Part shown: one piece after another, positions 24,379-29,575 of the stretch | How positions within the stretch are numbered: position 1 is the first letter of the stretch | Layout: each line of letters starts with the position of its first letter | Assembly (NCBI GenBank): GCA_021325635.1 | Contig: JAJPGV010000030.1 | Location: 1 to 64,000, forward strand | Origin: Chloroflexota bacterium | GTDB lineage: Bacteria; Chloroflexota; JAJPGV01 | Direction of reading: 5' to 3' | Length of the DNA stretch: 64,000 nt | Position numbers and translations under genes: made by a program | The notes under the pieces: generated by a model | What the model saw: the letters and a program-made list of their open reading frames with translations, nothing else | What the model was told of the DNA's origin: nothing | Databases searched by the model: none

Positions 24379-24834
24379 GTGGCGAAACCAGTCTTTGCGA
24401 TCGAGGTACGAACACGGCTTGGCGGCGCTCCGCCCCAGTCGTCCGCGCTCGATTCTGTGTACCTTCGTCTCACGGAAGAGCAGCTCACACTAGCAGATCT
24501 GATACGCCGCACCGTCGAGGAACAGGTGCGCGAGCTGTTGGCGCAGAAGCTCGACGTCTTGGCCATCGAGCGTGCGCTCGACCGCTGCTACCTCACGGAC
24601 GATGAGGTCAGCGCCCAGGCCGAGCGCGACGGGGCAGTGCGGCTTCCGAAACGGCGGCTGGGTCAGATCGACGCCGAGGTCGAGGTCGGCCGTGCGCTCG
24701 CCGCCTTCGAAAGCCGCTCTTATGTGGTGTTTGTCGATGGTCGGCAGGTCGAGAACCTCGAGGCGAAGATCAACATGCGGCTCGATACGCGCGTGACCTT
24801 CCTAAGACTTATGCCGCTGGCAGGTGGAGCATGA
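24379..24834 (+). CDS. Putative ubiquitin-like beta-grasp (MoaD/ThiS-type) protein ending in Gly-Gly-Ala
   Basis: 151 aa from a GTG with GGAGG 6 nt upstream. Strand 1 is FAIEVRTRLGG, strand 2 is DSVYLRL, and the helix TLADLIRRTVEEQVREL (residues 37-53) matches the TVAELL-type helix of MoaD/ThiS. Residues 55-112 are an insertion. The last 38 residues (YVVFVDGRQVENLE ... TRVTFLRLMPLAGGA) look like the MoaD end 'V.VNGR.V.....L.dgDeV.f.PPVAGG'. In that family the terminal Gly-Gly is adenylated or thiocarboxylated; here one extra Ala follows, which would need trimming. The stop overlaps the next gene by ATGA. The fold is inferred, and no E1-like or protease partner gene is nearby. Confidence 0.55.
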   Translation: MAKPVFAIEVRTRLGGAPPQSSALDSVYLRLTEEQLTLADLIRRTVEEQVRELLAQKLDVLAIERALDRCYLTDDEVSAQAERDGAVRLPKRRLGQIDAEVEVGRALAAFESRSYVVFVDGRQVENLEAKINMRLDTRVTFLRLMPLAGGA

Positions 24835-27731
24835 CGGCTCGCTTGTTGGAGGAGCACGCGGCCTTCGAGGAATACCTGCGGCGCTGGTTGGAGGGGGCTT
24901 CGAGCCGCTCGCCGGAGCTTGGCCAGCGTCCGTCTCCCCATTACAGTCCCCAGGTCGCGTCCGACGATCCCGAGTCGCAGCTGCTGCAATCGGGAATAGC
25001 GCAGATCACGTCCGACTGGGGTGAGGCTATTCCCCGCCTGGCCGCCGATCTATTCTTTGCGCCGGCCCGCTGGGCCAACGCCTACTCCTGGGCCGCAGAC
25101 CATTCGCTCTTCGGCCTGATCGAAACACTCGTACGCCGACTTCCGCCGGAGGATGTCGACAGCCGTCTGCAGCAGTGCCTCGAGCGCCTCTTGAGTCGCC
25201 CGTTCGACGATGCTCGCACGCCAGTCAAGATTCCGCCGGACCACGGACCTTTGGACCTGCCGAGCTGTGTCAAGCTGCTCAAGAACCTACCGCTGACATC
25301 GCGGCGCCTTGAGCTGATGGAGAAGCTTGTTCGCGGCGATTTTGACGGGGACCCATTCGACTCACCGGTTCCCGATCATCCAGGTACCTATGAGGCCGAC
25401 CAGCTTACCCAGCACCCTCACGCTGCCGTCCCTTTGTGGCAGACGCTGTATGACGCAGGTCGGTTTGACTACCCACTCTTTCGCGCGGCTGTCCTGCATC
25501 GGCCAAGCTTGGCCGCGCCGGCAAGTGAACGCGTCAACGTTTACGGGTCGGCTACGCTCGTCCACCAGGCAGCCAGTCCACAACTGGGCGAGCTGCTGAT
25601 TGAATGGAGTCAACGCCTGGCTCGGGAACTCGAGAGCGAGTCGCTCACACCCTCCACCGCACGCGTGCTGGCTGGCATTCAGGGCCTCCGCGGCTGGGAG
25701 CACCTTGTGGCCGCAGCGAGGCAGCATGCCGGCCTGGGTCTGGGCCGGCTTGAGTATTGGGGTGCCTGGGACCGTCCTGCGATCGAATCGGCGACGATCC
25801 GACTTGCTAGCGCTGAGGACGTTGAGCCCGTCGACGCCCGTGATCGCGTCCGAGCCATCACGGAGTTGCGCCGCCTGCCCGCGGCTTCCCTCGTTCACCT
25901 CTTGCCCATCGCGCGACATGGCCGGCGTCTACTGTGCGAGGCGCTCGGCTGGAACCAGGCGCTGCCGCTGATCCAGCTGATCGTGGACCTAGCGCGGATC
26001 GAGTCTGCGCGTTGGCGGCTCGACGGCGACATTCGCAACTGTGCCGACCCAACTGAGGGCATCCTTGACGTCCCGGCAGCCCGCGCGGCGCTGGCCGCAG
26101 CCGGCGAGGAAACGTCACGCACCATTTTGGAGGGTTTTGTCCAATCCAAAGTCCAGGCGGCAAGGGCGGTCACTCTGATCGAGGCGCTGGCTGGCTGGAA
26201 TCGGGACCAGGTGCTGCGCGGATTCGAGCGACACCAGCAGATCGCGATCAAGGCCTTCGGATTGTTGCCGTTGGATGCTGTGAACGCCGACACAGAGGTG
26301 CTCCAGCGCTACCTTCGCCTCCGACAGAGCCAGAAGGATGCCCGCCAGTTCGGACCCGAACGTCAAGCCAACCACGAAGCGGCCGTGCAGGTCGGACTCG
26401 CCAACCTCGCCCACGTTGCCGGAATGGCTGACGTCACACGCTTCGAATGGGCGATGGAAGCGCGTCTGGCGACGGACCTGGCGGCCGTCGGACGCACCTG
26501 GGCGAGCGGGGCGTACGAGCTCGAGCTTCAGCTCGAACCGCTCGCTCTTGAGCCCAGCCTTGTTGTTCGTCGCAACGGGGCGACCGTGAAGACCGCACCA
26601 GCGGCGATCCGAAGCGGATCGTCCTATAGCGAGGCGCGCGATGCCGTGACTCAGCTGTGCAGCCATGTCGGCCGGCTTCGACACACCCTCGAGTCGATCT
26701 CCGCAACCGGTGAGTCGCTGGGAATTGAAGATCTGGTCAATCTGCTGCATCTGCCGGTGGCGCGGGCATTGCTGGATCGGCTGGTCGTTGTGGACGGCTC
26801 GGGCGCCCAGGGTTTCCTCCGCACTGAGCCGCTTGGCATCCAGACACTCGAAGACCGCCTGGCGCCACTGACTGAACCACTGCGTTTAGCGCATGCGTAT
26901 GACCTGTTTCAGGCGGGGACCCTTGCCGCGTGGCAGCGTCATATTGTCCATCAACGGCTGCGCCAGCCCTTCAAGCAGGTCTTTCGAGAGCTCTATCTAT
27001 TGACTCCGGCCGAGCTCACCACGGGGACGTACACGAATCGATTCGCCGGCCATCCACTGAAGTCGAAGATCGCAAGTCGTCTGCTGCAGAGCCGCAACTG
27101 GAGGATGGCCTCAGGGGAGACGACGATTGCCTTCAAGCCATTGCCGACCTTTGGCCTGTGTGCTGTCTTTCAGTTTCCCGATTCCGGTCACTTTCTGAGT
27201 GAGCTACCGGTGATCACCACCGACCAGATCCGCTTCATACGTCTTCCACGCAGCACGCCAGGGTTTGAACAGCTATGGAGCGCGCCCGGCGTTCCACTTA
27301 TCAAGACTCCACCTCTTGCGTTCTCAGAGGTCATGCGCGATGCCGACCTAGTTGTCAGCGTAGCGAACAGCGCTGGGGAGGCGCTGCTCTCGTCCGAGAT
27401 GTACCAACATCGAGCCGAGGTGCTGCGAACCTTGGTCGACGACCTGGGCTTGCCGGGGGTCCGTACGGAGGGCCACTTCGCGTACGTGATGGGCAAACTA
27501 GCTACCTACCGGGTCCACCTTGGCAGCGCGGCCATTCACATTGAGCCAGGCCAGTACCTGTGCGTGGTGCCAGCTAAGTGGGGCAAAACGCATTCTGCGC
27601 TGTTCCTCCCATTCGCCGATCAAGGCGACAACAAAATCAGTGAGGTGATCTCCAAGGTCCTCTTGCTGGCAAACGACGACAGCATCCGTGACCAAACGAT
27701 CTTGAGCCAGATCCGCGCGGGTGGTGCATGA
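24831..27731 (+). CDS. Large DUF4132-domain protein
   Basis: 966 aa of unknown function. The C-terminal third matches DUF4132, the family of E. coli MolR and YehI. Visible motifs are RQPFKQVFRELYLLTPAEL (about residue 710), TNRFAGHPLKSK, PPLAFSEVMRDADLVVSVAN (about 830) and KLATYRVHLGSAAIHIEPGQ followed by YLCVVP (about 890-913). The N-terminal 600 residues are mostly helical, with no family I can name, and no WGR domain is seen. It has no signal or membrane segment, so it is cytoplasmic. The ATGA overlap with the beta-grasp gene means tight co-expression. The molecular role is unknown. Confidence 0.8.
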   Translation: MTARLLEEHAAFEEYLRRWLEGASSRSPELGQRPSPHYSPQVASDDPESQLLQSGIAQITSDWGEAIPRLAADLFFAPARWANAYSWAADHSLFGLIETLVRRLPPEDVDSRLQQCLERLLSRPFDDARTPVKIPPDHGPLDLPSCVKLLKNLPLTSRRLELMEKLVRGDFDGDPFDSPVPDHPGTYEADQLTQHPHAAVPLWQTLYDAGRFDYPLFRAAVLHRPSLAAPASERVNVYGSATLVHQAASPQLGELLIEWSQRLARELESESLTPSTARVLAGIQGLRGWEHLVAAARQHAGLGLGRLEYWGAWDRPAIESATIRLASAEDVEPVDARDRVRAITELRRLPAASLVHLLPIARHGRRLLCEALGWNQALPLIQLIVDLARIESARWRLDGDIRNCADPTEGILDVPAARAALAAAGEETSRTILEGFVQSKVQAARAVTLIEALAGWNRDQVLRGFERHQQIAIKAFGLLPLDAVNADTEVLQRYLRLRQSQKDARQFGPERQANHEAAVQVGLANLAHVAGMADVTRFEWAMEARLATDLAAVGRTWASGAYELELQLEPLALEPSLVVRRNGATVKTAPAAIRSGSSYSEARDAVTQLCSHVGRLRHTLESISATGESLGIEDLVNLLHLPVARALLDRLVVVDGSGAQGFLRTEPLGIQTLEDRLAPLTEPLRLAHAYDLFQAGTLAAWQRHIVHQRLRQPFKQVFRELYLLTPAELTTGTYTNRFAGHPLKSKIASRLLQSRNWRMASGETTIAFKPLPTFGLCAVFQFPDSGHFLSELPVITTDQIRFIRLPRSTPGFEQLWSAPGVPLIKTPPLAFSEVMRDADLVVSVANSAGEALLSSEMYQHRAEVLRTLVDDLGLPGVRTEGHFAYVMGKLATYRVHLGSAAIHIEPGQYLCVVPAKWGKTHSALFLPFADQGDNKISEVISKVLLLANDDSIRDQTILSQIRAGGA

Positions 27732-27916: not shown

Positions 27917-28420
27917 CTAATCCGAAGCCGGCTGGGCTTCCTGGGCGTGCTTCACGGTGAGGAGGAACACGGCGAGCACGAGCACGTGCACCGCCGTGCA
28001 CCACTCGCAGACGCGATGCAGCTGCACGAGCTCGACGTACACCAGGTACAGGACGTAGCCCAGCCCGGCAGCTCCCACCAACAGCTGGGCTAGGGCGGGA
28101 CCAGATGCGACGCGCCAGGCGGGGTTGGCTGTCCTGAGAATGGCCAGACCACCGGCCAGCGCGAACCAGGCGCTTCCCAGGGCGCTGATCGGCAGCGAGG
28201 TTGCCCCCAGCTCGGAGTAGGCGCTGTGGGTGACGGATCCGCAGTCGATAATCCCGCCGACCGAGCAGACGAGCGCCACCTGGTCGTAGTGCGCGCTGGT
28301 CAGGTACAGCGAGATTGCCAGCCCAACGACTGAGGCCGTGATGATTGCCGGCAGCTCCCAGCGAACAACCGAGGGTTGGGCATGGACTGCCGCGGCCTGG
28401 GCTTCGCTGCGCAGCGCCAC
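27917..28420 (-). CDS. Vitamin K epoxide reductase (VKOR) family protein
   Basis: 167 aa with four or five membrane helices. It reoxidises disulfide-forming thioredoxin-like proteins using quinone. The loop cysteines lie in LVCSVGGIIDCGSVTHSAYS and the active-site pair is CEWC near residue 140. It starts at GTG, 17 nt after the DUF929 protein gene, the likely redox partner. It is convergent with the DUF4132 gene across 185 bp in which I see nothing. Confidence 0.9.
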   Translation of the reverse strand: MALRSEAQAAAVHAQPSVVRWELPAIITASVVGLAISLYLTSAHYDQVALVCSVGGIIDCGSVTHSAYSELGATSLPISALGSAWFALAGGLAILRTANPAWRVASGPALAQLLVGAAGLGYVLYLVYVELVQLHRVCEWCTAVHVLVLAVFLLTVKHAQEAQPASD

Positions 28421-28437
28421 GGGGGACCTGCTCCTGC

Positions 28438-29361
28438 TCAGCCGCCCAGCTGCGCCTTGGCCTGCACCGCGCCGGGGGCTGCGCAGACCTCGCTCGGCTG
28501 GCCGCCGGTGGCCTGGCAGATGGCCGCGGTGATGTAGTTGGCATTGCCCAGGATTGCGCGTGCCACCGGGCTGCTCGGGTTGGACAGCGCGGCCGCGATG
28601 TCCGTCCAGCTCTTTCCAGCCAGGACGTCATTCGGATAGCCGCTCCCGACGCCGGTGTAGCGGTTGCCGACGTCGGTGAACGGGATTGAGCCCGACGGGT
28701 TCAGCTGGTTGAAGAGCTGCTGCTGCGCTGGGGTCATGGCCTGGAGCGGCGCACGGCTGCGCGTTTCGGTCTCGACCGGCACGAAGTCCACGTACTGGCT
28801 GCTGTACGAGCTCTTGGCGAAGGTGAAGGTCGGCGTGTTGGGATAGACGTCAGCGTCGGTCGAGGTCGTCAGCTGCAGCCCATTGAACGTGCCGAAGCGG
28901 CTCAGCGCGGCGATCAGGCTCCAGCGCTCCGAGGCGCAATACGGGCAGTATTCGGCACCGACGTAGAGCACCTCCGGATGGCCATTCGGCCCCGTTAAGG
29001 GTGACAGCTGGACGGGCTTCAGCGGATTTGTCAGCCCACCGCTGCCCACAGCGTCAAATGTGGATGCGGGAATGCTGGTCACAGCGGCAACGACCTGCGC
29101 GGTTTCCGCCTGCGACGCCGAAGGCGCCGCGCTCTGCTGGCGGCCGGCTATCAGTAAGCCGACGACAACCAGCACGAGGAGGCCGACAATGGCCGGGATC
29201 AGCCACGGACCCCGCCACCATGGCTGGCGTGACCGCGCCCCACGGCCGCGGTCACGAGCTCGGCGCGCGGTGCGATCGGGGTGTGCCTGCGCGTTGGCGG
29301 CTTGCGGGGCATTAGTGGCAGCGGCCTGGCCGGAGCGGCGACGGCCCGGAGTTGCAGACAT
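28438..29361 (-). CDS. DUF929 thioredoxin-like membrane-anchored protein
   Basis: 307 aa from the ATG at 29361, chosen because AAAGGA lies 7 nt upstream. The N-terminus is basic and cytosolic, followed by one helix ([21 protein letters not shown], first 20 residues [20 protein letters not shown]) and an external domain. [20 protein letters not shown] holds a CPYC thiol pair, as in DUF929. It should exchange disulfides outside the membrane with the VKOR encoded 17 nt downstream. The exact substrates are unknown. Confidence 0.82.
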
Positions 29362-29575
29362 GAAGGTTTCCTTTAATCTAGCGTTCGCCTGTCGCATTCG
29401 CTGAGCGAGGCTTCAGCTGGCAATTCGAGGCCGTGGAAATGAGCTGGCGAGTCCTGGTCCGGCTTTAGCCGCGGAGCGTGTCGAATTTGGCAGGGCTCGT
29501 TCGACGTGAATATGACGGAGGTCCGAGATCAATCGACAGCCGACGTCCAATACGCCACTTAACAGGAGACAGGTC

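Follow-up and report, generated by a model that had tools for sequence, protein, structure and literature searches.

The question raised by this locus is whether a small protein with the tail of a ubiquitin-like modifier and the large protein encoded immediately after it form one system and, if they do, how the tail of the first acts on the second. The locus lies in a window of 64,000 nucleotides from a Chloroflexota bacterium, the window being the whole stretch of DNA that was analysed (positions 1 to 64,000 of contig JAJPGV010000030.1, assembly GCA_021325635.1). Its first-pass annotation had described a 151-aa protein ending in PLAGGA, very like a MoaD/ThiS end, whose gene overlaps by ATGA that of a 966-aa DUF4132 protein, and had suggested a conjugation, sulfur-carrier or conflict-type system; all three are still candidates. 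Both overlapping ORFs have been verified within the window, with the layout described (Table 1); the small protein has the C-terminal end ...VDGRQVENLEAKINMRLDTRVTFLRLMPLAGGA, and a GGAGG ribosome site lies immediately 5' of its GTG start. The two-gene observation is real, and it is larger than that annotation saw. PADLOC gives no matches at the locus. Downstream of the pair and back to back with it, on the minus strand (27917-29397), lie genes for what we take to be a VKOR-like membrane protein and a DUF929-like thiol protein, an arrangement that is possibly redox-related and possibly a coincidence.

Table 1. Features of the two-gene locus, in positions of the window
Feature	Position	Strand	Description
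Ubiquitin-like (predicted beta-grasp) protein	24379-24834	+	151 aa, GTG start, end PLAGGA
Gly149-Gly150 tail codons	24823-24828	+	Exact end point of 107 of 118 complete homologous ORFs
ATGA gene overlap	24831-24834	+	Source of the extra C-terminal Ala
DUF4132-DUF7737 partner	24831-27731	+	966 aa
DUF5724 C-terminal end	26244-26456	+	Partner residues 472-542, Pfam E 2.4e-17
DUF4132 domain	26577-27101	+	Partner residues 583-757, Pfam E 3.5e-30
DUF7737 domain	27405-27713	+	Partner residues 859-961, Pfam E 1.2e-31
Cys911 codon	27561-27563	+	Sole conserved partner cysteine, motif YLC(I/V)VP

The small protein is predicted to be a beta-grasp of the MoaD/SAMP/Urm1/ubiquitin kind. Its AlphaFold model, built on an alignment of 40 homologues, has a mean pLDDT of 82.7 and shows the order b-b-a-(helical insert)-a-b-b-b, which corresponds to a beta-grasp carrying a helical insertion behind its first helix. 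The nearest solved fold found by Foldseek in the PDB is mycobacterial MoaD (6jbz_B, probability 0.99, E 0.016), followed by human MoaD (probability 0.97), the SAMP-type HVO_2177 of Haloferax, Urm1 and ubiquitin, with E-values that are modest for all these matches (about 0.016-0.1). The MoaD/ThiS likeness that had been read from the tail is thus borne out by the predicted structure. Sequence searches place the protein in no known family: it has no Pfam match at E 1 and no NCBIfam or PADLOC match, a profile search of the PDB with the family found no credible match, and the ThiS/MoaD Pfam model (PF02597) does not match the family, the four matches of this model in the window's genome being other genes.

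In the alignment of 40 homologues the first Gly of the tail never varies and the second is kept in at least 90% of the sequences, and nearly all the complete homologues end exactly at Gly-Gly (Table 1). The window member carries one extra Ala, and wherever a homologue has one or two residues past Gly-Gly, its stop codon and the start of the following gene overlap, as ATGA or GTGA, so that the additional residues are a consequence of gene packing. It had been argued that the extra Ala implies processing of the protein. This Ala is a by-product of the ATGA overlap, restricted to a few lineages and atypical of the family; what stands of the argument is that the residue would still need to be trimmed or tolerated. 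A truncated ubiquitin-like ORF that ends in PLVGD (L047:4048-4383, G229 contig C83), with no DUF4132 detected nearby, is probably a relic.

The partner harbors DUF4132 (PF13569, 105.7 bits) and, at its C-terminus, DUF7737 (PF24879, 109.2 bits), both scored against a Pfam cut-off of 27. Its core (residues 440-966) is predicted confidently (pLDDT 92.8, pTM 0.88) and contains the invariant polar residues Q712, R719, Y722, E728, R737, R836, D839 and Y893; the partner has many invariant Q, K, R, E, Y and D residues, as an enzyme does. Its only conserved cysteine is Cys911, located in DUF7737 with conserved His residues nearby and present in 104 of 108 aligned partners. Foldseek comparison of the core with the PDB and with viral models gave no significant match, and PDB profile searches with the DUF4132 core and with DUF7737 found no credible sequence relative. 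An E2-like fold for DUF7737 was considered on account of weak RWD (Knl1) matches and of the helix/strand order around Cys911, which in the predicted structure is compatible with E2 and is a lead only; profile comparison with four E2 enzymes did not support it, since hhalign gives a probability under 1% between DUF7737 and the E2 (UBC) enzymes. DUF7737 was not found in 14 control genomes. Escherichia coli YehI, encoded in a MoxR-VWA neighbourhood, has DUF4132 in common with the partner, but it lacks DUF7737 and has no adjacent ubiquitin-like gene. Therefore, DUF7737 marks the class of DUF4132 proteins that is coupled to a ubiquitin-like protein.

The coupling itself is neither a chance arrangement nor a peculiarity of the window. 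Among 400 Chloroflexota genomes, DUF4132 is found in 17 and the ubiquitin-like gene in 16 (after two spurious matches were dropped), 15 of them having both (Fisher p about 3e-24), and the coupled-class profile gives the two genomes that have DUF4132 alone weak scores, like those of E. coli YehI. In named genomes, the ubiquitin-like gene adjoins 75 of the best 80 DUF4132 relatives, nearly always just upstream; of the remaining five, three are found at the end of a contig. Conversely, homologues of the small protein directly adjoin a DUF4132 gene in nearly all the loci examined. The linkage to DUF4132 holds across at least nine phyla: Chloroflexota, Pseudomonadota, Actinomycetota, Planctomycetota, Armatimonadota, Cyanobacteria, Verrucomicrobiota, Deinococcota and Bacteroidota. 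The small protein belongs specifically with the DUF4132-DUF7737 protein, as its dedicated partner. When the window protein alone served as the query, close-sequence scans gave no matches in genome contigs or viral contigs, and no DUF4132 relatives turned up in viral contigs, so that a phage-borne origin of the pair finds no support. In several genomes of Ktedonobacteraceae (L032, L033, L037-L041 and related loci) the pair is present in two to four diverged copies, which suggests specialised paralogues, and one Chloroflexota locus (L169:6644-12806) has three consecutive same-strand DUF4132 ORFs with weak coupled-class scores and no ubiquitin-like gene.

One of these pairs has already been met in the laboratory. 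DRA0165 and DRA0166 of Deinococcus radiodurans are the same two-gene unit as the pair of the window: DRA0165, at 134 aa, fits the family profile and has the exact end LTALAGG, and DRA0166 has the architecture DUF5724-DUF4132-DUF7737 with the Cys kept. According to one study, they form a DdrO-regulated operon that is induced by mitomycin C and has no assigned function (PMC8533742). Another reports that deletion of DRA0165 (SEP068184) results in higher antioxidant activity, that the protein pulls down and binds thioredoxin, which is encoded next door, and that it is structurally like MoaD and SAMP1, and terms it a Deinococcus-specific oxidative-stress small protein (PMC9650054). A DdrO/RDRM operator, GGTTATGCTATTTACATAAC, is found at about -83 upstream of DRA0165 (L172:4164-4290); it agrees with PMC8533742 and conflicts with PMC9650054, where a motif of this kind is said to be lacking. 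As the Deinococcus pair is induced by DNA damage, a role in the stress response is the best guess for the pair.

What ties the tail to the partner is the way in which both change in evolution. The four partners without Cys911 among the first 108 aligned are exactly the four whose ubiquitin-like protein has lost Gly-Gly, and the loci added later contributed three more pairs without either. Over all informative pairs (n = 117), 110 have both Cys911 and Gly-Gly, seven have neither and none is discordant, a count that sets aside one in-frame fusion. The altered tails read LAGA (L114, L117, L131), FLSG (L223) and GRLW or GRMW (L053, L241), with an unrelated tail in L170, and in place of Cys911 these pairs have F, T, A, N or some other residue. 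In a tree built from the partner core after removal of the cysteine region, tail and Cys911 each change five times and on the same branches, the independent pairs being concordant in 5/5 cases on all branches and in 4/4 on the well-supported ones. With only about five independent losses, a paired sign test, the conservative choice, reaches its minimum at p = 0.125; five length-weighted tail losses would hit exactly those branches with a probability of about 1.5e-9, a rough estimate that leaves tree uncertainty out of account. In the rows without the cysteine, only 0-2 of the remaining 35-46 conserved columns are altered, and therefore the co-loss is not general decay.

The fusion set aside, found in Dictyobacter kobayashii (L029/L066), keeps the Cys and has lost Gly-Gly, its tail reading GDK. 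A single base separates its junction DNA from that of the two-gene arrangement; the fusion may therefore stem from a recent mutation or a sequencing error, which weakens it as evidence against a free tail. Among solitary proteins, the DUF4132 protein of L225, without a ubiquitin-like neighbour, has also lost the Cys, and the DUF4132-DUF7737 proteins of L111, L118, L171 and L174, with no adjacent ubiquitin-like gene, have kept it. In the Bacteroides finegoldii plasmid locus L053 (7068-9249), which belongs to the class without Gly-Gly and Cys and has the tail SGRLW, the ubiquitin-like gene is immediately preceded by a gene for a rhomboid protease; the tail of the Verrucomicrobiota member L241, AGRMW, is related to it.

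The pattern of co-loss shows a functional tie between the Gly-Gly tail and Cys911, and it speaks for either a reaction or a contact of the tail with the DUF7737 cysteine. The proposed model, to which a probability of roughly 45% is given, is that of a minimal two-gene ubiquitin-like system in which the Gly would be carried as a thioester on Cys911. Activation of the C-terminal Gly would fall either to the single MoeB/ThiF-type E1 of the cell or to DUF4132 itself, through its conserved polar core; the activated protein would then be held on Cys911, and, by analogy with E1, E2 and HECT enzymes, this link would most likely be of the thioester type. From Cys911 it could be transferred to a target, be it a protein, an RNA or a small molecule, or be retained as a regulatory switch. 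Since lineages that lack both tail and cysteine have kept the two genes together and the rest of the conserved core unchanged, the pair must have a further role independent of this step. Several observations count against the model: the operon has no E1 or E2, the core resembles no known fold, DUF7737 is not like E2 enzymes in profile, the independent losses are few, the D. kobayashii fusion has the Cys but not Gly-Gly, and some solitary partners have kept the Cys.

A different reading, somewhat unlikely, is that no bond is formed. The ubiquitin-like protein would be a non-covalent structural or regulatory subunit whose tail threads into a narrow DUF7737 pocket lined by Cys911, comparable to the tail of MoaD in MoaE, with tail and pocket co-evolving. 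Packing of the tail against Cys911 could account equally for the co-loss, and the existence of a natural fusion and the lack of a linked activating enzyme are both in keeping with it. So are the double-loss lineages, which retain an intact pair. However, packing would tolerate Ser or Ala in place of Cys in some pairs with Gly-Gly, and none is seen; moreover, ubiquitin-type chemistry has a free Gly-Gly and a Cys as its classic reactants, and here the two are co-conserved in nine phyla and disappear together.

A third possibility is that the small protein is a sulfur carrier. A MoeB/ThiF-type E1 would make a thiocarboxylate at its tail, and the DUF4132-DUF7737 protein would use the sulfur at Cys911, through an acyl-persulfide or sulfur transfer, for some modification, as in MoaD-MoaE and ThiS-ThiG. 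MoaD, HVO_2177 and Urm1 are the nearest folds, one ThiF-type E1 is encoded elsewhere in the window's genome, and the binding of thioredoxin by DRA0165 (PMC9650054) would fit as well. What makes this improbable is that the family escapes the ThiS/MoaD Pfam model, whose matches in the genome lie in other genes, and that MoaE, rhodanese, cysteine desulfurase and E1 do not recur near the loci. Recurrent neighbours of the E1 or JAB kind, which the first-pass annotation had thought worth searching for, did not appear: about 110 loci hold no recurrent neighbour family of the E1/E2/JAB kind, no Pfam family occurs in more than four of 95 flanking proteins, and ThiF, JAB and E2 are absent from the 25 commonest Pfam families of these proteins. 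Defence genes are not consistent neighbours of the pair in this survey of flanking genes.

That DUF7737 is a cysteine peptidase, trimming GGA to GG or removing the ubiquitin-like protein from conjugates made by others, is very doubtful: the His residues near the Cys and the members with one or two residues past Gly-Gly would suit it, but in most members the tail already ends, mature, at Gly-Gly and the Cys is retained all the same, the pair has no linked conjugating enzyme and no peptidase fold is recognised. A bolder and rather unlikely reading is that DUF4132-DUF7737 proteins are a new enzyme class, alone activating and/or transferring a dedicated ubiquitin-like protein via Cys911. Found across many bacteria and, in Deinococcus, induced by DNA damage, such a protein would be an all-in-one ubiquitin-type ligase with no relation to the known folds of E1, E2 and E3.

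Known systems of the ubiquitin type rely on E1 enzymes, which E2 and JAB may or may not accompany. The family of the window has the predicted fold and the C-terminal Gly-Gly in common with MoaD, ThiS, SAMP and Urm1, but it differs from MoaD/ThiS in having no Pfam ThiS/MoaD match and a helical insert of about 25-40 residues, and its partner is a DUF4132-DUF7737 protein instead of the MoaE, ThiG or E1 of those proteins. The operons with E1, E2 and JAB described by Iyer et al. in 2006 (PMC1779556) also encode a small Gly-Gly beta-grasp protein in a compact arrangement, whereas loci of the window type have no E1, E2 or JAB and a single large partner of unrecognised fold. Cysteine chemistry at the C-terminal Gly, which we infer here, would be a feature in common with those operons and with CBASS Cap2/Cap3 conjugation (PMC10097602).

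The first-pass annotation knew of no description of the pairing. DRA0165 had already been studied and its likeness to MoaD noted (PMC9650054); it was not presented as one member of a widespread two-gene system, and neither the wider family and the pairing nor the Gly-Gly/Cys link appear in the available parts of the published accounts of DRA0165 and DRA0166 (PMC8533742, PMC9650054). A literature search, with most subscription journals and all preprints outside its scope, found nothing on DUF7737, nor on DUF4132 together with a ubiquitin-like protein.

The pair is a genuine two-gene ubiquitin-like module, conserved widely and for the most part undescribed, which spans many unrelated bacteria, including the radiation-resistant Deinococcus. 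New here is the single conserved cysteine of DUF7737, which disappears only when the Gly-Gly end does and suggests a pared-down, previously undescribed ubiquitin-type reaction. Two DUFs, DUF4132 and DUF7737, thereby gain a concrete and testable hypothesis with named residues. An unexplained DNA-damage-induced operon of the laboratory organism D. radiodurans, for which a deletion mutant of the small gene is already published (PMC9650054), is linked to a general bacterial system.
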